This document shows positions 885 through 15,023 of a stretch of 64,000 nucleotides of DNA, piece by piece; position 1 is the stretch's first letter, and every line of letters begins with the position of its first letter. Below the pieces are notes generated by a model that was given only the letters and a program-made list of their open reading frames with translations, did not search any database and had not been told where the DNA came from. Origin of the DNA: Promethearchaeota archaeon (GTDB lineage Archaea; Asgardarchaeota; Lokiarchaeia; Sigyniarchaeales; SOKP01). The position numbers and the translations under genes were made by a program. Location: contig JAUVXW010000003.1 of NCBI GenBank assembly GCA_030603385.1, positions 124,001-188,000 of the forward strand. Reading direction: 5' to 3'.

Positions 885-2189
885 TTAAGCATCTGTATTT
901 TCAATTATCATTGCAGTTCCTTGTCCACCGCCACAACACATTGTAGCGAGACCATATTTCGCGTTTTTCTCTTTTAAAATTCTTGCCAATGTACCAACTA
1001 TTCTGGGGCCTGTTGCTGCTATTGGGTGCCCTATTGAAATGGCACCACCTTTAATATTAATATCGTCAATTTTATCATCTAACCCAACTTCATGAACCCA
1101 ATTAAGTCCTACACTACCAAACGCCTCATTAATTTCCCAAAAGTCGATATCATCTATAGTTAAGCCCGCATGCTTTAACGCCATCCAAGTTGCAGGAACA
1201 GGACCTCTTCCCATAACTGTGGGATCCACCGCACCATATCCATTCGAAACAATACGAGCTAATGGATCAAGATCATGTTTTTTCATTGCATCTTCTGACA
1301 TTAATAACAAGGTAGCAGCTCCTGCATTAATTGGGCATGAATTTCCCGCAGTTACTAGGCCCAGTTCTGTCCCAAACTCTTTAACATATTCATCTTTACT
1401 CATGAGTGGTCTATAGTATCCACCATCCCAACCAGGTTTACTTAGAGCTCTTAAATCCTTTGTTCCTTCATAGGTGGCATTTTTCCTGACAGAAAGATCA
1501 TGCTCAATTAACATAGGAGTATCCTCATCACCTTCAGCATGAGCCATTACAGGGGCAATTTCTCCCTTGAAAAACCCTTCTTCTTGACCTTTAGCAGCTA
1601 ATTGATGACTGCGAACTGAAAATCTATCATAGTCTTCTTTAGTGAAAATACCAGCATTCATTTCTGAGAGTTTTTGAGCTGTTTGTAGCATTGAGTACGA
1701 GCAACGGAAATCAACGACATCATCAACAAAAAGCTCATGTCCTACCCTCATAGCAGGGGGTGTTTCTCTTACCGTTGGACGTTTTGATCGTGACATAGTA
1801 GCATTATTTTTCCCAGTCGCTATCACTACATCAGAATACCCCATTGCAATATTATTATATCCTATGGAAGCGCAGGTCATTCCTGAACCACATTGCCTAT
1901 CTAATGCGATAGACGATATTTTTGCTGGAAATTTCGCTAAAAACAGGGAATATCTTCCTCCAAAGGCTATATTTTCATAATTAAAATGAGTAGCTCCTAC
2001 ATAAAACTCATCTACATCTTCAGGTTTTACTTTATCTTTTAGACGGTTGTCAAACATATCTATTAATGTTAGAGCAGTCAATTCATCAGGACGTAAGGTT
2101 CCAAACGCATCTCTTGCTGGTTCTCTTGGTCGAGATCTTGAAAAAGGAGTTCTTACATAATCAGTAATATATACATCTCTTATTTTCAT
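885..2189 (-). CDS. Thiolase (acetyl-CoA acetyltransferase family), intact active site
   Basis: Family role: thiolytic cleavage or condensation of 3-ketoacyl-CoA in the cytoplasm. The 434-residue protein has all three thiolase residues: nucleophile Cys100 in DRQCGSGMT, His388 in GGAISIGHPIAATG, and the acid/base Cys418 in TMCCGGGQG; the NEAF motif is at about 354-357. The ATG is preceded by GAGGT. It lies 40 bases downstream of a degenerate paralogue (2230-3564) and is probably co-transcribed with it and with the crotonase at 3698-4480. Its closest relative in the window is the thiolase at 13746-15023 (shared YxRTxFSRSRP N-terminus). Direction (degradative or biosynthetic) and chain length are not readable; context favours degradation. 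Confidence 0.93.
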   Translation of the reverse strand: MKIRDVYITDYVRTPFSRSRPREPARDAFGTLRPDELTALTLIDMFDNRLKDKVKPEDVDEFYVGATHFNYENIAFGGRYSLFLAKFPAKISSIALDRQCGSGMTCASIGYNNIAMGYSDVVIATGKNNATMSRSKRPTVRETPPAMRVGHELFVDDVVDFRCSYSMLQTAQKLSEMNAGIFTKEDYDRFSVRSHQLAAKGQEEGFFKGEIAPVMAHAEGDEDTPMLIEHDLSVRKNATYEGTKDLRALSKPGWDGGYYRPLMSKDEYVKEFGTELGLVTAGNSCPINAGAATLLLMSEDAMKKHDLDPLARIVSNGYGAVDPTVMGRGPVPATWMALKHAGLTIDDIDFWEINEAFGSVGLNWVHEVGLDDKIDDINIKGGAISIGHPIAATGPRIVGTLARILKEKNAKYGLATMCCGGGQGTAMIIENTDA

Positions 2190-2229
2190 ATTTTTTAAAC
2201 CTCTTTTTATTTTTTACCTCATATTATAC

Positions 2230-3564
2230 TCACATATCTATATTCTCAATTACTACAGCTGTTCCCTGACCCCCCGCACATGACATAGCAGCAAGACCAT
2301 ATTTTGCACTCTTCTCTTTAAGAATTCTAGCTAATGTTGTCGTGATTCTCAGACCCGTAGCGGATGCTGGATTTCCTATCGCTATTGCTCCTCCATGAAT
2401 ATTCATTTTATTTTCCCAATCAATACCTAATTTATTAGCAGCATTAAGTGCTACAACACTAAAGGATTCATTAATTTCCCAAAAATCAATATCTCCCACT
2501 TTTAAACCTGCATGCTCTAAAGCCATTTTGGATGCCGGTACTACACCTCGTCCCCATACAGTTGGATCTACCCCCGCAAAACCAATTGATATAACCTTCG
2601 CCATGGGTTTCAAGTTGTATTCTTCAAGTGCATTTTTAGATGCTAATAAGCAAAGTGAAGCTCCATTACTTATTGGAGAACTATTTCCTGTTGTAATAAT
2701 ACCCTTCTCTGTTCCAAATTTTGCAATATATGCCTCTTTAGAAAGTACAGGATTATTATAGCCACCTGCCCATCCTGGAGTGCCTATGGAAGGCATATTT
2801 GCAATATTTTCCAAAGTAATCGCCTTTTTGATAGATTGATCTATTTCAACCTCAATTTGGGTATCAGGTTCACCTTCTTTATGCCCTTTAAGAGACATAA
2901 TTTCTTCTTTGAAATATCCATTTTCCAAAGCCTTCGCTGCTAAATTATGGCTACGTGTACTTAATTTATCCATTTCATCCTTTGTGAGAAGCTCTGCTTC
3001 TTCCTCAGCAAGTTTTTGAGCTGCTTGAAACAATAACCGACTCGTTTTCCAATCATATAAATCATCATTATACCATTTGCTATCTGGATCAAGCATAAGT
3101 TTATCTGGCGGCATCCCATATACTGTTACTTTTCCATCGTAACTATGCATTGGTACTCGAGTAAATTGATCAAAACCTAAGGATACCACCACATCGGAAT
3201 AACCCATTGAAATATTGCCAAAACCAACATGTAAAGTTGTCATGCCGGAACCGTCTTGTTTGTCAAATATCGTTGCAGGCACATGAAAGGGAAATTTTGC
3301 CATAAATATAGGAATCCTTCCCCCAAATGTCCCATGCTCATGTTGTAATAAAGTACTGCCAATCAAAACCTCAGAAACATTCTCACGTTTGAGTGTGCTT
3401 CCCTTGTTTGGTATACGTTTGTCAAACATATCTATCAAAACATGAGCTGCAAATTCTAATCCCTGCTTATTACTAAAAACATCATCAGCAGGATCCAGAG
3501 GATTTGCTTGAGAAAATGGTGTCCTTACATGGTCTACTAAATATACTTCTCTTGCTTCCTTCAT
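2230..3564 (-). CDS. Thiolase paralogue lacking all three catalytic residues
   Basis: A full-length (444 residue) thiolase-fold protein aligned end to end with its downstream neighbour. The nucleophilic Cys is Asp104 (FDKQDGSGMT), the catalytic His is Asn398 (GGAIAIGNPASATG), and the position of the second catalytic Cys is Ser428 (AAMSCAGGQG). I checked all three codons on the reverse strand: GAC, AAT and TCA. The fold-determining glycines and the WEINESF segment remain, and the reading frame is intact, so it does not look like a decaying gene. Thiolase-fold proteins without the Cys are known to act as retro-aldolases (Ltp2 type) or non-catalytic subunits; either is possible here. No DUF35 partner gene is nearby. 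Confidence 0.85.
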   Translation of the reverse strand: MKEAREVYLVDHVRTPFSQANPLDPADDVFSNKQGLEFAAHVLIDMFDKRIPNKGSTLKRENVSEVLIGSTLLQHEHGTFGGRIPIFMAKFPFHVPATIFDKQDGSGMTTLHVGFGNISMGYSDVVVSLGFDQFTRVPMHSYDGKVTVYGMPPDKLMLDPDSKWYNDDLYDWKTSRLLFQAAQKLAEEEAELLTKDEMDKLSTRSHNLAAKALENGYFKEEIMSLKGHKEGEPDTQIEVEIDQSIKKAITLENIANMPSIGTPGWAGGYNNPVLSKEAYIAKFGTEKGIITTGNSSPISNGASLCLLASKNALEEYNLKPMAKVISIGFAGVDPTVWGRGVVPASKMALEHAGLKVGDIDFWEINESFSVVALNAANKLGIDWENKMNIHGGAIAIGNPASATGLRITTTLARILKEKSAKYGLAAMSCAGGQGTAVVIENIDM

Positions 3565-3697: not shown

Positions 3698-4480
3698 TTA
3701 CCTTCCCTTAAAGATGGGTTTACGTTTTTCTACAAAAGAGGTAGCAGCTTCCTTATGGTCTTCAGAAGCATAACATTTGGCATTAAATTCTCCTTCAATC
3801 TTTAGCATTTCATCAAAAACCTTATCATAACCTCTATGTATCGCTTCCTTCGAAAGGGCCAAAGCAAGTGGTGCTTGTTCTGCTAGATGATTAGCAAACT
3901 CCAACGTTTTAGGTAATAACTCTTCATGAGGAAATACTGCATTAACCAACCCAATCTTATAAGCTTCATCAGCAAATATACGTTTACCACTAAATATAAG
4001 CTCTTTTGCTTTATGAACACCAATAAATTTAGGTAGTAAAAAACTACCATTCATATCTGGAATTAATCCCATGCGAATGAAGAATTCTCCAAAACTAGCT
4101 TTCTCTGATGCGTAAATAATGTCGCAACTTAATGTTAAATTGGTTCCAAACCCAACTGCTACACCATTTACCGCAGCAATAATTGGCTTGTATAATCGAA
4201 AAAAATCATAAGGGTGAATAGTTACAGCACCACCTGAAGTTTCTTCCCTAAATTTCCCGCTAGCAAACTCTTGAACATCTGCTCCTGCACAAAATGCTTT
4301 CCCTGCTCCCGTTATGACAATTACTCTCACGTCAGAATCTTCTTTAGCAGCCTTTAGTGAATTTTTCAAATCTGCATTCATTTGTACATTGATAGCATTC
4401 ATTCTCTCAGGACGATTAAGTGTAATAACCGCCACCATACCTTTTTTCTCGTATAGAATAGTTTCATATTCTGGACTCAT
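3698..4480 (-). CDS. Crotonase-superfamily protein, PaaG-like isomerase type
   Basis: 260 residues from the ATG at 4480, chosen because AAGGTG lies about 9 bases upstream; a TTG at 4498 would add six residues. It shows the crotonase oxyanion-hole segments (AFCAGAD; AAVNGVAVGFG). The two Glu residues of a true enoyl-CoA hydratase are replaced (Asn114, Phe134), while an Asp is present in GLIPDMNG (Asp142), as in PaaG-type 2-(1,2-epoxy-1,2-dihydrophenyl)acetyl-CoA or enoyl-CoA isomerases. It is therefore more likely an isomerase than a hydratase. It is the first gene of the - strand group with the two thiolases; the spacer of ~130 bases leaves open whether they share a promoter. Confidence 0.85.
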   Translation of the reverse strand: MSPEYETILYEKKGMVAVITLNRPERMNAINVQMNADLKNSLKAAKEDSDVRVIVITGAGKAFCAGADVQEFASGKFREETSGGAVTIHPYDFFRLYKPIIAAVNGVAVGFGTNLTLSCDIIYASEKASFGEFFIRMGLIPDMNGSFLLPKFIGVHKAKELIFSGKRIFADEAYKIGLVNAVFPHEELLPKTLEFANHLAEQAPLALALSKEAIHRGYDKVFDEMLKIEGEFNAKCYASEDHKEAATSFVEKRKPIFKGR

Positions 4481-4709
4481 AAACAATAACACCTTCAAAT
4501 AAAAACTATTAAAATTCTGTAATTTGTTAGTTTTTAGTTTGTATTAAATAAAATTGATTCTTGTACTATTTAATTTTTTTACTTTTTACATTTAGAAGAA
4601 ACAGCACTAAAATTATCAAGATAAAAAATAAAACTTTATTATCATACCAATTTAAATAAAATATTGAATGAATATTAACCTAAAAAAAAGTATTATTTGA
4701 TGATAAAAA

Positions 4710-6106: not shown

Positions 6107-6865
6107 TTGACTATTATTAATTTTAAAGTGGATGAAGGGAAAAAGAAGAAAATCGAAGAAATTGCTAAGTTTAAAGGGTATAAAAGTGTCAGCGAATTCA
6201 TTCGGGAAGCTATTGATGAAAAAATGAATTTGCAAAAATTAATTGACGACTTTAAAGAAAAAAATCCTCCTATCGATTTAGATAAAATTGACATACCTGA
6301 TTTCATACCAGATGGAAAGTATTTAGGAATCTCTAGAAATACAATTGTAGTTATTGGAGATACATTGCAAGAAGTAATGAAAACGCTTTATGAAAAGTTC
6401 CCAGAAGCGTCTGCAGGGATTCTACGTAAAGGTAAAGAAATGGAGCAGTTTGAGACACTATTTTCACAATTTTCTACTGAAAATACCAAATGTTTCCAGC
6501 AAGCTGAAATTGCTAAAAGATTTTTTCCTATTTTAGAAATTTTCATATCACTTAATGGAGATAAAAAGTCTTTACTTGGATTAGTTGATACTGGAGCATC
6601 GATCATGGCCCTTGATAGAAAGTTCATTGAAAATTTTGAATTAAAACCTATTAGAAAAAGTAAAATATTAACTGCGAATGGAATTATTGAAGCACCAATC
6701 TATAAAAGCATGTTCCAATATGAAAATCTCTCATATGAATTAGAATTCACATCATCTGATACTAGTGGATTACCAATTCAAGTACTAATCGGAAAAAATT
6801 TTATTGATAAGTTTAATATACTTTTCCTAGGGAGAGAAAAATTGTTTTGTATCCAGGCGCTATAA
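6107..6865 (+). CDS. RHH DNA-binding domain fused to a retropepsin-like aspartic protease
   Basis: 252 residues from a TTG start; no in-frame ATG exists upstream. Residues 1-40 form a ribbon-helix-helix domain (one beta strand with IINFKVDE, then two helices, SVSEFIREAIDEKM). Residues ~69-103 (GKYLGISRNTIVVIGDTLQE) resemble the short DUF5678-type unit. Residues ~140-250 resemble a single-chain retropepsin: FISL strand, catalytic DTGAS at 161-165, and the second hydrophobic-GK motif PIQVLIGKNFIDKF. Retropepsins act as dimers, and RHH domains also dimerise. It is placed just before a HepT/MntA pair. The combination suggests a DNA-bound or self-cleaving regulator; substrate unknown. Confidence 0.75.
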   Translation: MTIINFKVDEGKKKKIEEIAKFKGYKSVSEFIREAIDEKMNLQKLIDDFKEKNPPIDLDKIDIPDFIPDGKYLGISRNTIVVIGDTLQEVMKTLYEKFPEASAGILRKGKEMEQFETLFSQFSTENTKCFQQAEIAKRFFPILEIFISLNGDKKSLLGLVDTGASIMALDRKFIENFELKPIRKSKILTANGIIEAPIYKSMFQYENLSYELEFTSSDTSGLPIQVLIGKNFIDKFNILFLGREKLFCIQAL

Positions 6866-7065: not shown

Positions 7066-7470
7066 ATGGATAATTTAAGAATTAAGCGATATCATGATAA
7101 AATAAACCATGTAATAGATTATATAAAGGATTTACCAATAGAACCAAAAAACGAACTTGAAAAACGTGGGATATTTTATTCCTTACAAACATCCATTGAA
7201 GCAATTGTAGATTTAATTGCAATGCTTATTAAAGATTTAGGAATTCAAGTTAAAGATGATGTTGCCAATATTTCGGAAATTGTCAAAGTTAGAAAACTAA
7301 AATCAGAGTTAGGAGAAAACTTAAAAAAAGCTAATGGTATGCGAAATATTATAGTCCATCGTTATAATAATTTTGAAGAACAAATAATCCTAAATTCTGT
7401 CGAAGAAATAAAAGATCTTTTATATCAATGGATAAAAATTGTGGAGGAAATATTAAATGAAACTATATAA
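7066..7470 (+). CDS. hepT: HEPN-domain toxin, HepT family
   Basis: 134 residues, all-helical, with the HEPN motif RX4HXY at Arg93-Asn94...His98-Arg-Tyr100 (GMRNIIVHRY). HepT proteins are RNases of the type VII HEPN/MNT toxin-antitoxin system and are silenced by AMPylation near the HXY tyrosine by their MntA partner. The gene overlaps its downstream partner by 14 bases, with the partner's ribosome site inside its end. Length and motif match the family well. Confidence 0.88.
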   Translation: MDNLRIKRYHDKINHVIDYIKDLPIEPKNELEKRGIFYSLQTSIEAIVDLIAMLIKDLGIQVKDDVANISEIVKVRKLKSELGENLKKANGMRNIIVHRYNNFEEQIILNSVEEIKDLLYQWIKIVEEILNETI

Positions 7471-7855
7471 GATAGCGGAATTAAGGGAAAATTTAAGATC
7501 ACTAAAGCAGAATTATGACGTGATTATATTTGGATCCCAAGTGGAAGGTGGAGCACGCCCAAATTCAGACATTGACATTGCTGTGATTTCACGTGAAAAT
7601 GTTATAGAAAAAAATATTAACTTGCAAAAAGAACTTTTAGGAAAATTTTCTTCAAAATTTGACGTTCGCGTATTTGAATTATTTCCAATCTATATTCAAA
7701 TTTCTATTATTGACCACTATGAAGTTATTTTTGGAGATATTTTAGAGATTTCTGAATATTTTTATACTTTTCGCAAAAAATGGGACGATTGTAAACACCG
7801 GATATTATCAAATCAGTTTTCAAGTTATCAAGAGCGTCTTTCTTTAATTAAATAA
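7457..7855 (+). CDS. mntA: MNT-type nucleotidyltransferase antitoxin, MntA family
   Basis: 132 residues with the minimal nucleotidyltransferase motif GSX10DXD: Gly26-Ser27, then Asp38 and Asp40 (FGSQVEGGARPNSDIDIAV). In characterised pairs MntA transfers AMP to HepT and thereby blocks its RNase activity. The start ATG lies inside hepT with GGAGG 9 bases upstream, so translation is coupled. The third acidic residue expected on a later strand is probably in KFDVRVFEL (~74). It is in the same + strand group as the RHH-retropepsin gene. Confidence 0.88.
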   Translation: MKLYKIAELRENLRSLKQNYDVIIFGSQVEGGARPNSDIDIAVISRENVIEKNINLQKELLGKFSSKFDVRVFELFPIYIQISIIDHYEVIFGDILEISEYFYTFRKKWDDCKHRILSNQFSSYQERLSLIK

Positions 7856-7944: not shown

Positions 7945-8775
7945 TTACTCTACAATGGCGTAGGCATTACCAAGTACAACTGGGCCTCGGTCAGTTCGTA
8001 CTTGAATGATATGACGACCGTTATCCTTCCAACCTTCTGTTGTGAGGGTCTCTCCAGGAAACACGACATCTTTAAATCTTGCACTGAATTCTTTAAAACG
8101 AGAAACATCCCCATTACATAGTCCATTTACAATAGCACGTGTAGCAATCCCATATGTACATAAACCATGAAGGATTGGTTTTGGTTGACCTGCCATTTTA
8201 GCAAAATTCGGATCTATATGTAGTGGATTAAAATCTCCATTTAGTCTATAAAATGCTGCTTGATTTGTACTGGTCTGATAAGAAATGCTAAAATCTGGTT
8301 CTACTCCTTCGGGAGGAATTATGGGCTCAGTTTTTGGCCCTGGGTCCCCACCGAAACCTCCTGAACCACCAACGAAAAAGCCATACCTTGTATCAAATAT
8401 ATGCTCACCTTCTGACGAATATCCGGATATTTTTGTATGTATGACAGCAGCTTTACCTTTATCGTATATATGTTCTATAACGGCTTTTGTATTTATTGTT
8501 CCATTTGGTTTAAAAGGTACATAAAGACGGATTAATTGCTCACCATGTAATAATCGGACAAAATCAGTTCCCTTTGGGAAAAGTAGTCCGCTACCTGCTA
8601 CTATCGTTGCAAAACTCGGAAACACTTTCATACCGCCTTTTACTCTTTCATAAACAAAGGATAAATCTTCTGCTTGTGCACCAATTCCCAAATTATACAA
8701 GGCACTCATTTTCCAATCATACTTAAATGTTCCCTCTCTTGTTTGTCCTACTGAATTTAAATCTATTTTTGACAT
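7945..8775 (-). CDS. MaoC-like enoyl-CoA hydratase 2 (double hot-dog)
   Basis: 276 residues, the length of the two-repeat hot-dog hydratase 2 of peroxisomal multifunctional enzyme type 2. The C-terminal half carries the hydratase-2 motif YRLNGDFNPLHIDP with catalytic Asp181, Asn183 and His186, followed by PILHGLCTYG. The family hydrates trans-2-enoyl-CoA to (R)-3-hydroxyacyl-CoA. It is the last of three tandem paralogues (with 8896-9735 and 9909-10742), downstream of two short-chain dehydrogenases and a thiolase on the same strand. Together they give hydration, oxidation and thiolysis. A shared end motif (NGRxIIQVRT...LGNAxAxVE) marks the three as recent duplicates. Confidence 0.9.
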   Translation of the reverse strand: MSKIDLNSVGQTREGTFKYDWKMSALYNLGIGAQAEDLSFVYERVKGGMKVFPSFATIVAGSGLLFPKGTDFVRLLHGEQLIRLYVPFKPNGTINTKAVIEHIYDKGKAAVIHTKISGYSSEGEHIFDTRYGFFVGGSGGFGGDPGPKTEPIIPPEGVEPDFSISYQTSTNQAAFYRLNGDFNPLHIDPNFAKMAGQPKPILHGLCTYGIATRAIVNGLCNGDVSRFKEFSARFKDVVFPGETLTTEGWKDNGRHIIQVRTDRGPVVLGNAYAIVE

Positions 8776-8895: not shown

Positions 8896-9735
8896 TTACT
8901 CTACAACAGCGTATGCATTACCTAAAACTGTTGATCTTTCAGTTTTTACTTGGATTATATAGCGTCCGTTATCTTTCCAGCCTTCTGTTGTCAAAGTTTC
9001 ACCAGGATATACCTCGCTAGTAAATCTTGCTTTAAATTCTTTAAAACGTGAAACATCTCCATCACAAAGACCATAAACTATAGACCTTGTGGCATAGCCA
9101 TAGGTACATAATCCGTGAAGGATCGGTCTGTCAAATCTTCCACTTCTCTTAGCAAATACAGGATCTAAATGTAACGGGTTGTAATCGCCACTTAATCTAT
9201 ATATAGCTGCTTGATTTATATTGGTTTTATATGATAAACTAAAATCTGGTTCTTTTCCCTCAGGAGGATCTAACGGTTCAGCTTTGGGACCACGATCTCC
9301 ACCCCAACCACCTTCACCAATATAGAAATGAACATATTTGGCGTCGAAAATATGTTCGCCATCAGGAGTTCTACCCGACATTCTAGTATGAATAACAGCA
9401 GCTTTCCCCTTATCAAACATATTTTCGCATACACCTTTGACTTTTAATTCCCCTTCAGATGGAAAAGGCTTAACAAGTTTTATCATTTGTTCTCCATGGA
9501 TAAATCGCGCACCATCAACTGGCTTACTACTAAATCTTGGGAATCCTGCTCCCGCGAGAATACAGGCATAACTAGGAAAGACTTGCACACCTCCAGGTGT
9601 TCGCTCATAAACAAACTTAAGTTCATCTGGTTGAGCACCAATCCCGAGATTATAGAGTATTACGTCTTTCCAAGTATATTTAATGGTTCTTTCTTCAGTT
9701 TCTTTACCAATAATATCTAAATTTAAACTTGTCAT
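8896..9735 (-). CDS. MaoC-like enoyl-CoA hydratase 2 (double hot-dog), second copy
   Basis: 279 residues. The hydratase-2 motif YRLSGDYNPLHLDP is intact (Asp184, Asn186, His189), followed by RPILHGLCTYGYATR. The N-terminal hot-dog half (LGIGAQPDEL, then FVYERTPGG) normally forms the acyl-binding tunnel. It differs from its neighbours mainly in the loop at about 64-77 and around 140-150, as expected if the copies prefer different acyl chains. It lies between the other two copies with AT-rich spacers of 120-170 bases, so each copy may have its own promoter. Confidence 0.9.
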   Translation of the reverse strand: MTSLNLDIIGKETEERTIKYTWKDVILYNLGIGAQPDELKFVYERTPGGVQVFPSYACILAGAGFPRFSSKPVDGARFIHGEQMIKLVKPFPSEGELKVKGVCENMFDKGKAAVIHTRMSGRTPDGEHIFDAKYVHFYIGEGGWGGDRGPKAEPLDPPEGKEPDFSLSYKTNINQAAIYRLSGDYNPLHLDPVFAKRSGRFDRPILHGLCTYGYATRSIVYGLCDGDVSRFKEFKARFTSEVYPGETLTTEGWKDNGRYIIQVKTERSTVLGNAYAVVE

Positions 9736-9908: not shown

Positions 9909-10742
9909 TTACTCAACAATTGCATGAGCGTTGCTGAGGACTACTGTATCTCCTTTTCGAACTTGAATTATATAACGCCCGTTATCCTTCCAGCCTTCAG
10001 TAATGAGTGTTTCTCCGGGATAAACGACATTTGTAAATCTTGCTTTAAATTCCTTGAAACGAGACACATCTCCATCACAAAGACCATATATTATAGCTCG
10101 AGTTGCATGGCCATAAGTACATAACCCATGGAGTATTGGTTTCTCTTGACCACCTTGACGTGCCAATACAGGATCTATATGTAAAGGGTTCAAATCACCA
10201 TTAAGTCTGTAAAGAACTGCTTGATTTTCAGTAGTTTTGTATGTTATACTAAAATCTGGTTCTACACCTTCAGGGGGTGTTAAAGTTTCACTTTTAGGAC
10301 CTCGTTCTCCTCCAAATCCACCTGCCCCCAGGTAAAAGAAAGCTGATTTGACATCAAATAAGGGTTCTCTCTCTTTGGTAAGAGCGGTGAATTTAACATG
10401 AATAACCGCTGCTTTACCTTTATCAAAAATATCGGTGACCTCACTGAAACAGATTACTTCTCCTGAAGAAGGAAAAGGTTTATGCAAATGGATTAATTCC
10501 TCTCCATGTATGAACCTGGGAAAAAAAACATTTCCCATGTTGCGTGGAAACGCAATTCCTCTAGCGATGGTTGCAAAACTGGGGAATACTTTAATTCCCC
10601 CTGGAGTATTCTCATAAACAAAGGGGAGTTCATCTGCCTGAGCACCAATTCCTAGAGCATAAAGTACTGCATCCCTCCAAGTATATTTAAAAGTCACTTC
10701 TGGGTTCTTAACACCAACGCAATTTAAATCTAATCCAGACAT
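9909..10742 (-). CDS. MaoC-like enoyl-CoA hydratase 2 (double hot-dog), third copy
   Basis: 277 residues with motif YRLNGDLNPLHIDP (Asp183, Asn185, His188) and the double hot-dog layout of the other two copies. It is the most upstream copy. In the acyl-pocket half it has LTKEREPLFDVKS where the others have a DGEHIFD-like segment, a possible specificity difference. Function as for the family: formation or removal of (R)-3-hydroxyacyl-CoA. It is adjacent to the metallo-hydrolase at 10852. Confidence 0.9.
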   Translation of the reverse strand: MSGLDLNCVGVKNPEVTFKYTWRDAVLYALGIGAQADELPFVYENTPGGIKVFPSFATIARGIAFPRNMGNVFFPRFIHGEELIHLHKPFPSSGEVICFSEVTDIFDKGKAAVIHVKFTALTKEREPLFDVKSAFFYLGAGGFGGERGPKSETLTPPEGVEPDFSITYKTTENQAVLYRLNGDLNPLHIDPVLARQGGQEKPILHGLCTYGHATRAIIYGLCDGDVSRFKEFKARFTNVVYPGETLITEGWKDNGRYIIQVRKGDTVVLSNAHAIVE

Positions 10743-11825: not shown

Positions 11826-12764
11826 TTATTTCATTAACTCATCTTGAGAAACGGCACCTTCTCGTTTAGAAGGTAAGTCTTTCATTAATTCTGGAAATCT
11901 TTCCGCTAACTTTTGAGGAGTAAATGGTTGCCAATCATTTGATATTTTCTTTACAGCCCTCCATCCTCTGTATACCCAGACTTTATCAGCGATCGCTCTA
12001 AAGACCTCTCCATTGATACCTTTAGCCTCATCTGTAGCGAGATAGGCTACCAATGGTGCGAAATGTGAAGGATGAAAGATATCAAAACCATCCGGAGTTT
12101 TTGCTTTCATATAATCTCCCATTCTTGGAGTTAAATCAGTTGTCATACGTGTCCTAGCACTTGGTACAACACAGTTTACGGTTGCGTATTTAGCAACCTC
12201 TCGAGAAATTATTACTGTGAAAGTAGCTATACCAGATTTAGCGGCACCATAATTTGATTGACCTACATTACCATATAGACCAGAATCAGAAGCAGTATTG
12301 ATTATTCTGCCAAAATTTCCTAAAGACTCATCCGCTTTTCCTTTTTCCCTGAAATAAGCAGCAGCGTGTCTAGTCAAATTAAATGTCCCCTTCATATGAA
12401 CAGCAATAACAAGATCAAACTCTTCTTCTGACATATTAAATATCATTCTATCTCGCAAAATACCTGCATTATTCACAACGATATCGATTTTACCAAATTC
12501 AGAAATTGCTTGGTCGATCATTCCTTTTGTCTTGTTAAAATCAACTACAGAGTCATAATTTGCTATTGCTTTGACTCCAAGGTTTTTACACTCTTCAACA
12601 ACGCTATCCGCGATTTTAACATCTTTATCCAAATGAGTAGCCCCACCACCTATATCATTAATAACTAAATTACAACCTTCTTTTGCCATAATTAAGGCTT
12701 CTTCGCGACCTACACCACGACCCGCCCCAGTAATTAAGGCAACTTTTCCGTCTAACATTCCCAT
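11826..12764 (-). CDS. Short-chain dehydrogenase, (R)-3-hydroxyacyl-CoA dehydrogenase-like (MFE-2 type)
   Basis: 312 residues. The Rossmann motif TGAGRGVGREEAL near residue 12, NNAG at 98-101 and catalytic Ser159, Tyr172 and Lys176 (SNYGAAK) are all present. An acidic residue after the second strand (INDIGGG) suggests NAD(H). The wording NNAGILRDRMIFNMSEEEFD is typical of the dehydrogenase part of multifunctional enzyme 2, which oxidises the (R)-3-hydroxyacyl-CoA made by hydratase 2. Three hydratase-2 genes lie downstream on the same strand. The C-terminal extension beyond ~250 is longer than in FabG. Cytoplasmic. Confidence 0.88.
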   Translation of the reverse strand: MGMLDGKVALITGAGRGVGREEALIMAKEGCNLVINDIGGGATHLDKDVKIADSVVEECKNLGVKAIANYDSVVDFNKTKGMIDQAISEFGKIDIVVNNAGILRDRMIFNMSEEEFDLVIAVHMKGTFNLTRHAAAYFREKGKADESLGNFGRIINTASDSGLYGNVGQSNYGAAKSGIATFTVIISREVAKYATVNCVVPSARTRMTTDLTPRMGDYMKAKTPDGFDIFHPSHFAPLVAYLATDEAKGINGEVFRAIADKVWVYRGWRAVKKISNDWQPFTPQKLAERFPELMKDLPSKREGAVSQDELMK

Positions 12765-12845: not shown

Positions 12846-13646
12846 CTAAATTCCAGCATTAATAGTAAAACCACCATCAACAACTATTTTTGCACCTGAA
12901 ATATAACTTCCTGCTTTTGATGCCAAAAAGACAATTGTTCCCTTAATGTCATCTCCTTTGCCGAATCGCTTCATTGGTATTAGGTTCAATAAAGGTATTC
13001 CAATCATTTTGTACATTGGTCCATTTTTATCTTGAAGAAATTCCATCATACCCTCTTCCATATTACCTGGAAGAATAGCATTTACCCTAATATTATGTTT
13101 ACCCCATTCTACTGCTAAAGATCTCGAAAGACCTATAACTCCTATTTTAGAGGTAGCATAAGCAGTCATCCCACTTGAAAACCCTACTTGTCCATTTTCA
13201 CTTGAAAAATTGATAATACATCCGTTTTTTTGTCTAATCATCATTTTTCCTATTTCGCGGCAACATAGAAAGGTTCCTGTTATATTTGTACTGATGATAC
13301 TATTCCATCGTTCCAAACTATATGTTTTGGATTGTGCCATATCTGATATTCCAGCATTATTCACTAATATATCGCATTTTCCGTAGTGGTCTTTCATAAT
13401 ATTTGCCATTTGCTTTACATCATCTTCCTTTGTTATATCACATTTTATTGAAATGCTATTACTGCCAATTTTTTTCAACTTTTCAACTGCATCCTCTAAT
13501 TTTCCATGAATATCTCTGCCACAAATCGCAACATCTGCTCCCGCTTCAGCTAATCCTTCAGCTGAAAAGAATCCTAATCCTCTACCTCCACCAGTGACAA
13601 GAGCAATTTGATTATCTAATTTAAACAAATCTTTTATATGCGTCAT
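12846..13646 (-). CDS. Short-chain dehydrogenase/reductase (FabG-like)
   Basis: 266 residues with a complete SDR set: TGGGRGLG at 18-25, NNAG at 96-99, Ser149 region (NFSSENGQ), Tyr163 and Lys167 (YATSK), and the C-terminal ISGAKIVVDGGF. Arg after the second strand (CGRD) suggests NADP(H) preference, unlike its neighbour at 11826. The likely reaction is 3-ketoacyl/3-hydroxyacyl-CoA or alcohol/ketone interconversion. It sits between the thiolase at 13746 and the MFE-2-like dehydrogenase on the same strand. GTGA lies four bases before the ATG. Confidence 0.87.
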   Translation of the reverse strand: MTHIKDLFKLDNQIALVTGGGRGLGFFSAEGLAEAGADVAICGRDIHGKLEDAVEKLKKIGSNSISIKCDITKEDDVKQMANIMKDHYGKCDILVNNAGISDMAQSKTYSLERWNSIISTNITGTFLCCREIGKMMIRQKNGCIINFSSENGQVGFSSGMTAYATSKIGVIGLSRSLAVEWGKHNIRVNAILPGNMEEGMMEFLQDKNGPMYKMIGIPLLNLIPMKRFGKGDDIKGTIVFLASKAGSYISGAKIVVDGGFTINAGI

Positions 13647-13745: not shown

Positions 13746-15023
13746 TTAGGCGTCAAGATTTTCAATTATTGTTGCTACTCCCTGTCCGCCTCCAACACAG
13801 GCGTTGGCTATACCGTACTTAGCTTTCTTATCTTTCAAAATCCTTGCTAAGGTTCCTGTAAGTCGAATCATAGTTGACCCTAAAGGATGCCCAATAGCAG
13901 TAGAACCTCCCATAACATTGACTTTTTCCCAGGGAAGGTTGAATTTGTCCATGCAATTCAATGCAACAATACAAAATGCTTCATTTATTTCCCAATAATC
14001 AATATCTTCCGCTTTCATGCCAGCGATATCTAAAGCTCGTTTGGTAGCAGGAACTGGCCCTCTACCCATTGTTGAGGGATGTACTGCTGCCCAACCAATA
14101 GATATAATTCTCGCCATAGGATCAAGACCTCTCTTCTTTGCTTCTTCAGCTTCCATACAAACGGCGGTTGTAGCACCAGCATTTAGTGGTGAGGAATTTC
14201 CTACAGTGATTACACCTTGGTCTGTCCCTTCTCTCTTTACATAACCATCTTTACCGCCATTTTTTTCTAAATAAAATGGGCGAGATAATCTTGGTAATTT
14301 GGCATGACTTTCCATACTCGATGGTCTTACGTTCATATCTCTATCTACCATTAATGGAGTGCCAACATCTCCTTCTACGTGTCCTTCAATTGGTATGATT
14401 TCACCTTTAAACCACCCTTCTTCATGACTTTTAACAGCTAAATTATGAGCTCGTACTCCAAACTTATCTAAGTCTTCTTTAGTAAATATAGGTACTTCTT
14501 GTTCATATAATTTTTGAGCTGTTTGAAGCATGTTAAACGATGTCTGCATTTCTAAATCAGGACGAAAATATTTACTGTTTTTATCTATCAATTTTAAATT
14601 AGGTTCAGTACCTCTACCTCTAACTCGAGTCATATGTTCAAAGCCACTTGCCAATACACATTTAGCGTTTCCAGTCATAATTTCCATAATTCCAATATGC
14701 ATTCCTGAACCTGCTGAACCACATTGTCTGTCAATCGAAAATCCTGGAACACTTTCAGGAAAACCTGCTAAAAAAAGGGGAATTCTCCCTCCATATGACC
14801 AGTTTTCCAAAGTCCCATTTGCAACTCCAAGAGAGGCTTCTTCAATATCTTTTCTTTCTACGCCTTTATCAGCTAATTTCTCATCAAAGAATTTTATCAA
14901 CAATTCAGCAACCAATTCGTCTCCTCTAATTTCACCAAAAACATCTCTTTCAGGTTGTTTTGGTCTAGAGCGCGAAAATGCAGTTCGAGCATAATCAATC
15001 AACCAAACTTCTTTTAAATCCAA
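13746..15023 (-). CDS. Thiolase (acetyl-CoA acetyltransferase family), intact active site
   Basis: 425 residues from a TTG start. Nucleophile Cys101 (DRQCGSAGSG), His379 (STAIGHPLGST) and Cys409 (NACVGGGQG) are present, with WEINEAF at 344-350. It is a paralogue of the thiolases at 885 and 2230 and shares YARTAFSRSRP. It is the first gene of the - strand series thiolase, SDR, SDR, metallo-hydrolase, hydratase-2 x3, which together cover hydration, oxidation and thiolysis in the second half of a beta-oxidation cycle. Confidence 0.92.
   Translation of the reverse strand: MDLKEVWLIDYARTAFSRSRPKQPERDVFGEIRGDELVAELLIKFFDEKLADKGVERKDIEEASLGVANGTLENWSYGGRIPLFLAGFPESVPGFSIDRQCGSAGSGMHIGIMEIMTGNAKCVLASGFEHMTRVRGRGTEPNLKLIDKNSKYFRPDLEMQTSFNMLQTAQKLYEQEVPIFTKEDLDKFGVRAHNLAVKSHEEGWFKGEIIPIEGHVEGDVGTPLMVDRDMNVRPSSMESHAKLPRLSRPFYLEKNGGKDGYVKREGTDQGVITVGNSSPLNAGATTAVCMEAEEAKKRGLDPMARIISIGWAAVHPSTMGRGPVPATKRALDIAGMKAEDIDYWEINEAFCIVALNCMDKFNLPWEKVNVMGGSTAIGHPLGSTMIRLTGTLARILKDKKAKYGIANACVGGGQGVATIIENLDA

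Follow-up and report, generated by a model that had tools for sequence, protein, structure and literature searches.

What does a full-length thiolase-fold protein do when all of its catalytic residues have been exchanged and an intact paralogue is encoded directly after it? This question is raised by a locus of a Promethearchaeota archaeon (JAUVXW010000003.1). The window analyzed here is a 64,000-nt stretch of that contig, and all coordinates are positions within it. We refer to the product of 2230-3564 (minus strand) as B, to that of 885-2189 (minus strand) as A, and to that of 13746-15023 (minus strand) as C. The B-A region contains the following features:

2230..3564, minus strand: subunit B, thiolase-fold protein of 444 aa with Cys>Asp104, Ala>Ser367, His>Asn398, and Cys>Ser428
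3253..3255, minus strand: Asp104 codon of B, site of the nucleophilic Cys (computed from the residue number and gene start)
2464..2466, minus strand: Ser367 codon of B, in NESF (Ala in 42/42 outgroup thiolases; computed from the residue number)
2371..2373, minus strand: Asn398 codon of B, site of the catalytic His in GHP (computed from the residue number)
2281..2283, minus strand: Ser428 codon of B, site of the second catalytic Cys (computed from the residue number)
2190..2229, minus strand: 40-nt intergenic spacer in which AAAGAGGTTT, a possible ribosome-binding site, precedes the start of A
885..2189, minus strand: subunit A, sister paralogue of 434 aa with intact Cys/His/Cys, starting 40 nt past the end of B

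The sequence-only reading of this DNA had described a triple catalytic exchange in an intact 444-residue frame, next to an intact paralogue. Both claims held when the frame was re-read and aligned with A and C. The minus-strand frame of B begins with ATG and is uninterrupted, and D104 (KQDGSG), N398 (IGNP), and S428 (SCAGGQG) align exactly with the catalytic Cys, His, and Cys residues, all of which A retains. We also identified a fourth active-site exchange, missing from the earlier list, at Ala>Ser367, where NEAF has become NESF. Outgroup thiolases were uniform at the four exchanged positions, with C, A, H, and C in 42/42. In the same motif, the oxyanion-hole residue Asn365 is retained in B, and both it and Glu366 are invariant.

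B matched Pfam families PF00108 and PF02803 (Thiolase_N and Thiolase_C) above cut-off, and its AlphaFold2 model (pLDDT 92.8, pTM 0.92) aligned with PDB thiolases at Z ~55 over ~380 residues, with thiolase domains and fold across the full length of the protein. The pantetheine loop GNSSP was recognizable, and a positive residue was retained, with K246 replacing R. Nothing was found beyond the thiolase C-domain, as both the model and the Pfam matches end at residue 444. Searches of PDB sequences, PDB folds, and NCBIfam with B returned ordinary thiolases only. Because Cys/His/Cys is replaced, we describe B as a thiolase-fold protein and do not file it as a thiolase enzyme.

Orthologues of B with 79-99% identity were encoded in five more genomes of the same lokiarchaeal genus (G006, G008, G011, G014, and G017), giving six copies with that of the source genome. 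Asp104 was present in 6/6 copies, and Asn398, Ser428, and Ser367 in 5/5 full-length copies; the G014 copy is truncated where its contig ends. Since the same gene occurred with intact frames in five further MAGs, we rejected a sequencing or assembly artifact as its source. Profile searching across 65 family genomes yielded no further member of the A/B clade. When 227 phylum genomes were searched for the DNA pattern encoding D-K/R-Q-D-G/A-S-G/A-M, only the six genus members matched and 221 others did not, at zero mismatches allowed, a setting that a diverged orthologue beyond the family could escape. B was also absent from many species of the genus. With six genus members and none elsewhere in the profile and motif searches, the B clade is real but narrow. 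Almost all other thiolases in the fetched loci keep Cys/His/Cys, apart from one degenerate group in Jordarchaeia with different exchanges.

Using the Nei-Gojobori method, we obtained dN/dS values between orthologues of 0.13-0.20 for B, 0.08-0.15 for A, and 0.07-0.17 for C, with dS between B orthologues reaching 0.86. No stops or frameshifts were found within B in the six genomes. B is thus maintained by selection, under slightly looser constraint than A, and this whole-gene constraint together with the intact predicted fold indicates that it is functional. The invariance of the three exchanged residues is weak evidence by comparison, because orthologues are invariant at 64% of B columns and the chance of this outcome is about one in four; we therefore rejected it as proof of function. 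The sequence-only reading had proposed looking for conservation of the exchanged residues in an orthologous group and for relaxed selection among relatives. Wherever the sequence of an orthologue reaches an exchanged residue, that residue is retained, none of the five carries the usual Cys/His/Cys, and the dN/dS comparison showed purifying selection, with neither premature stops nor relaxed selection.

In phylogenetic analysis, A and B formed sister clades (bootstrap 99, SH-aLRT 96), joined next by a single thiolase of Lokiarchaeota Zod_Metabat.1389 (L041; support 99/93). When either the A clade or the B clade was omitted, the remaining clade still attached beside L041, and long-branch attraction was therefore rejected as the cause of the A+B join. 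The L041 thiolase, the closest relative outside A/B, resembles the pair in adjoining a MaoC-type hydratase and a short-chain dehydrogenase (SDR). Unlike A and B, it is single copy, keeps Cys/His/Cys, and shows the ancestral state at almost all of the positions inspected, including nearly all of those changed in A/B; it carries Thr at 42, as A does. Given the sisterhood of A and B and this single intact relative, the pair arose by tandem duplication of an intact thiolase, after which B lost the catalytic residues.

B lay directly before A, in the same direction, in 5/5 genomes where both fit on the contig, the G014 contig ending inside B. Among the searched genus and family genomes, A orthologues were confined to those having B, and apart from that truncated contig neither gene was found without its partner. 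G008 lacks the enoyl-CoA hydratase next to B, yet A and B are still together. The 40-nt gap with its possible ribosome-binding site suggests that the two genes may be co-transcribed. In most species pairs, dS of A and B was lower than that of most flanking genes: G006 gave 0.16 for A and 0.37 for B versus 0.75-2.05 for neighboring genes, and G008 gave 0.81 and 0.70 versus 1.22-1.75. G011 was mixed, with two hydratases and a ferredoxin-like gene lower still than A/B. This pattern suggests that the pair may have moved between species as a unit, by recombination or transfer, with codon bias as an alternative cause.

Tandem thiolases that are both intact were common in Lokiarchaea and Methanolliviera (L043, L047, L048, L052, L055, L061, L068, and L070). 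Since lokiarchaeal tandem thiolases are common and mostly both intact, adjacency alone proves little about an A:B complex.

We then compared substitutions in the two partners. Positions 78, 117, 132, 133, 134, 400, and 401, which hardly vary among other thiolases, were altered in both A and B. The change at 117 (E>N) was identical, while the partners differed at 78 (W>G in B, W>I/V in A) and in E132>D/N, H133>Q/N, M134>F/A, L400>A/I, and G401>S/A; a change at 136 (R/H>M) was seen in A only. By sequence counting from Cys126, not by structure, positions 78 and 136 correspond to Gly100 and Asn158 of human mitochondrial thiolase T2. Both T2 residues are listed among those of the dimer interface, and full function of a thiolase active site is stated to require dimer assembly (PMC6790690). 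The excess of shared changes was modest (hypergeometric P ~0.04 from approximate counts), and because A and B share ancestry, these changes may predate the duplication.

Further genes of the cluster lie on the same strand:

3698..4498, minus strand: crotonase-type enoyl-CoA hydratase, upstream of B and kept beside it except in G008
7945-8775, 8896-9735, and 9909-10742, minus strand: three tandem MFE-2-type 2-enoyl-CoA hydratases 2 (MaoC fold)
11826..12764, minus strand: 3-oxoacyl reductase-like short-chain dehydrogenase, probably a 3-hydroxyacyl-CoA dehydrogenase
12846..13646, minus strand: second short-chain dehydrogenase
13746..15023, minus strand: thiolase C, an intact third thiolase outside the A/B clade

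The predicted hydratases, dehydrogenases, crotonase, and thiolases make up a complete beta-oxidation set from enoyl-CoA to thiolysis. Inserted amid the catabolic genes is a pair encoding a HepT-like RNase and an MNT nucleotidyltransferase (toxin-antitoxin type, 7066-7855), which is present in G006 and G014 and missing from the corresponding stretch of G011 and G008. Traveling near this pair is an unusual fusion (6107-6865), a small protein with a CopG-like ribbon-helix-helix and a retropepsin-like aspartyl protease domain (DTGAS). In G008, a leucine-rich-repeat and TIR-domain protein is encoded within the catabolic cluster (L138 5148-7076).

We lean towards B being a non-catalytic subunit of an A:B heteromeric thiolase that would work like ketosynthase/chain-length-factor (KS/CLF) pairs. 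In this reading, one ancestral gene for a homomeric thiolase, part of a beta-oxidation cluster in Lokiarchaea, was duplicated in tandem; copy A retained Cys/His/Cys chemistry, and copy B lost the chemistry but kept the whole fold. A would perform thiolytic cleavage within an obligate A:B heteromer, whose active site B would complete across the dimer interface; B would probably also shape the substrate tunnel, as the chain-length factor does for the ketosynthase. Physical assembly, an inert B, and its tunnel role are inferred. Of the two readings offered from the sequence alone, an obligate partner of the A thiolase or a new activity (retro-aldol or decarboxylation), the first is indirectly supported by the invariant tandem pairing, the co-absence of the two genes, their sister phylogeny, and the parallel changes in both proteins. 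One point weighs against a partner role: plain decay would not be expected to leave four polar residues (Asp, Ser, Asn, Ser) at these sites.

A and B share with known pairs their arrangement as tandem sister paralogues with and without catalytic residues. KS-alpha and KS-beta of type II polyketide synthases are tandem thiolase-superfamily paralogues, one subunit being active and the other having lost the catalytic Cys. PqsB, too, is without the active-site Cys. In the Pseudomonas PqsBC complex, a FabH-like heterodimer, this Cys is on PqsC (PMC6204780), and in polyketide synthases the chain-length-factor partner shapes the substrate tunnel at the ketosynthase dimer interface (PMC7138838). The resemblance is one of working principle and not of membership: KS/CLF pairs carry out condensation on acyl-carrier-protein substrates, whereas B is a CoA-type homologue in a degradative cluster, with its Cys changed to Asp and the His and second Cys lost too. 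PqsBC likewise differs from A/B in superfamily branch and reaction.

The main alternative, which we consider possible but unlikely, is that B uses its thiolase fold for a new kind of catalysis, acting alone or inside an A:B complex. Asp104 would then serve as general base or carboxylate nucleophile, and Ser367, Asn398, Ser428, and Asn365 would polarize the CoA thioester, for retro-aldol cleavage of a 3-hydroxyacyl-CoA, decarboxylation, or thioester hydrolysis. In favor of this reading, the exchanges are coordinated, polar, and fixed in every orthologue, and the active-site motif windows of B are well conserved (33/42 columns versus 64% overall). MaoC-type hydratases that make 3-hydroxyacyl-CoA are a feature of steroid aldolase pathways, and genes for hydratases of this type, yielding that product, are found in the same cluster. 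In addition, Ser367 occupies the third NEAF position and by motif comparison may correspond to Cys304, the acid in the YDCY motif of the CtSal aldolase (PMC12329534).

The Ltp2 and Sal steroid aldolases and trypanosomal SLP resemble B in that, within a thiolase fold, the nucleophilic Cys is replaced and other active-site residues are repurposed (PMC12329534). However, they belong to an SCP2-type branch with YDHF/YDCY motifs, and Ltp2 and Sal work with DUF35 partners; in B, these features give way to NESF, Asp104, and a catalytically intact paralogue. As the motif is defined (PMC12329534), B carries neither YDHF/YDCY nor its catalytic Tyr, and the window contained no PF01796 (DUF35/OB hydratase partner) match, the closest one on this contig lying >60 kb away. 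Lacking both the Tyr base and a DUF35 partner, B was rejected as a member of the aldolase family; the comparison was retained as an analogy, although the earlier retro-aldol analogy with Ltp2 is weakened by the missing YDxF motif and the lack of a nearby DUF35 gene. Other evidence also counts against new chemistry: the dehydrogenases and intact thiolases of the cluster already cover ordinary thiolysis, a stand-alone enzyme need not travel with A in every genome, and B is somewhat less constrained than A. A narrower version, in which the Asp104/Ser367/Asn398/Ser428 site would perform a new C-C or thioester reaction within a two-activity A:B heteromer of the CoA-thiolase branch, is less likely still.

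A stand-alone CoA- or acyl-CoA-binding role for B, as a sensor, carrier, or sequestering protein with no catalysis and no obligate contact with A, appears improbable. The full fold, the GNSSP pantetheine loop, and K246 are compatible with binding, and there is a precedent in Mycobacterium smegmatis TLP1, a thiolase-like protein without catalytic residues that keeps the CoA groove and binds CoA weakly (PMC3406046). MsTLP1 is nevertheless monomeric with an extra C-terminal domain, whereas B has no MsTLP1-type C-terminal beta-barrel and does have a dedicated active paralogue. The strict pairing and sister relation with A also argue against this role, as do several changes in B at positions altered in A too and not in the pocket only. 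Finally, we rejected as very improbable a decaying duplicate becoming a pseudogene. All three catalytic residues are indeed lost, B shows slightly higher dN/dS than A, and the gene is missing from many species of the genus. Purifying selection over dS values of up to 0.86, frames free of premature stops in six genomes, retention of the same residues, and the confidently predicted fold nevertheless all speak against decay.

Active/inactive pairs are known among the condensing enzymes of polyketide and quinolone synthesis. For CoA-dependent degradative thiolases, we found no precedent for heteromeric or pseudoenzyme forms in a limited search of the open-licence literature. If true, the A/B pair and its surviving single-copy sister form would document either the conversion of a homomeric thiolase into an obligate heteromer or the remodeling of its site towards new chemistry.

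A further case was observed in two Jordarchaeia genomes (L097 5037-6278 and L102 5719-6894), where an intact thiolase is followed by a degenerate paralogue that is 56% identical to it. This paralogue has Cys>Gly, NELF, and Cys>Ala, and keeps the His of GHP. Since this pair is separate from A/B, loss of the catalytic Cys in one of two tandem thiolases has arisen at least two times.
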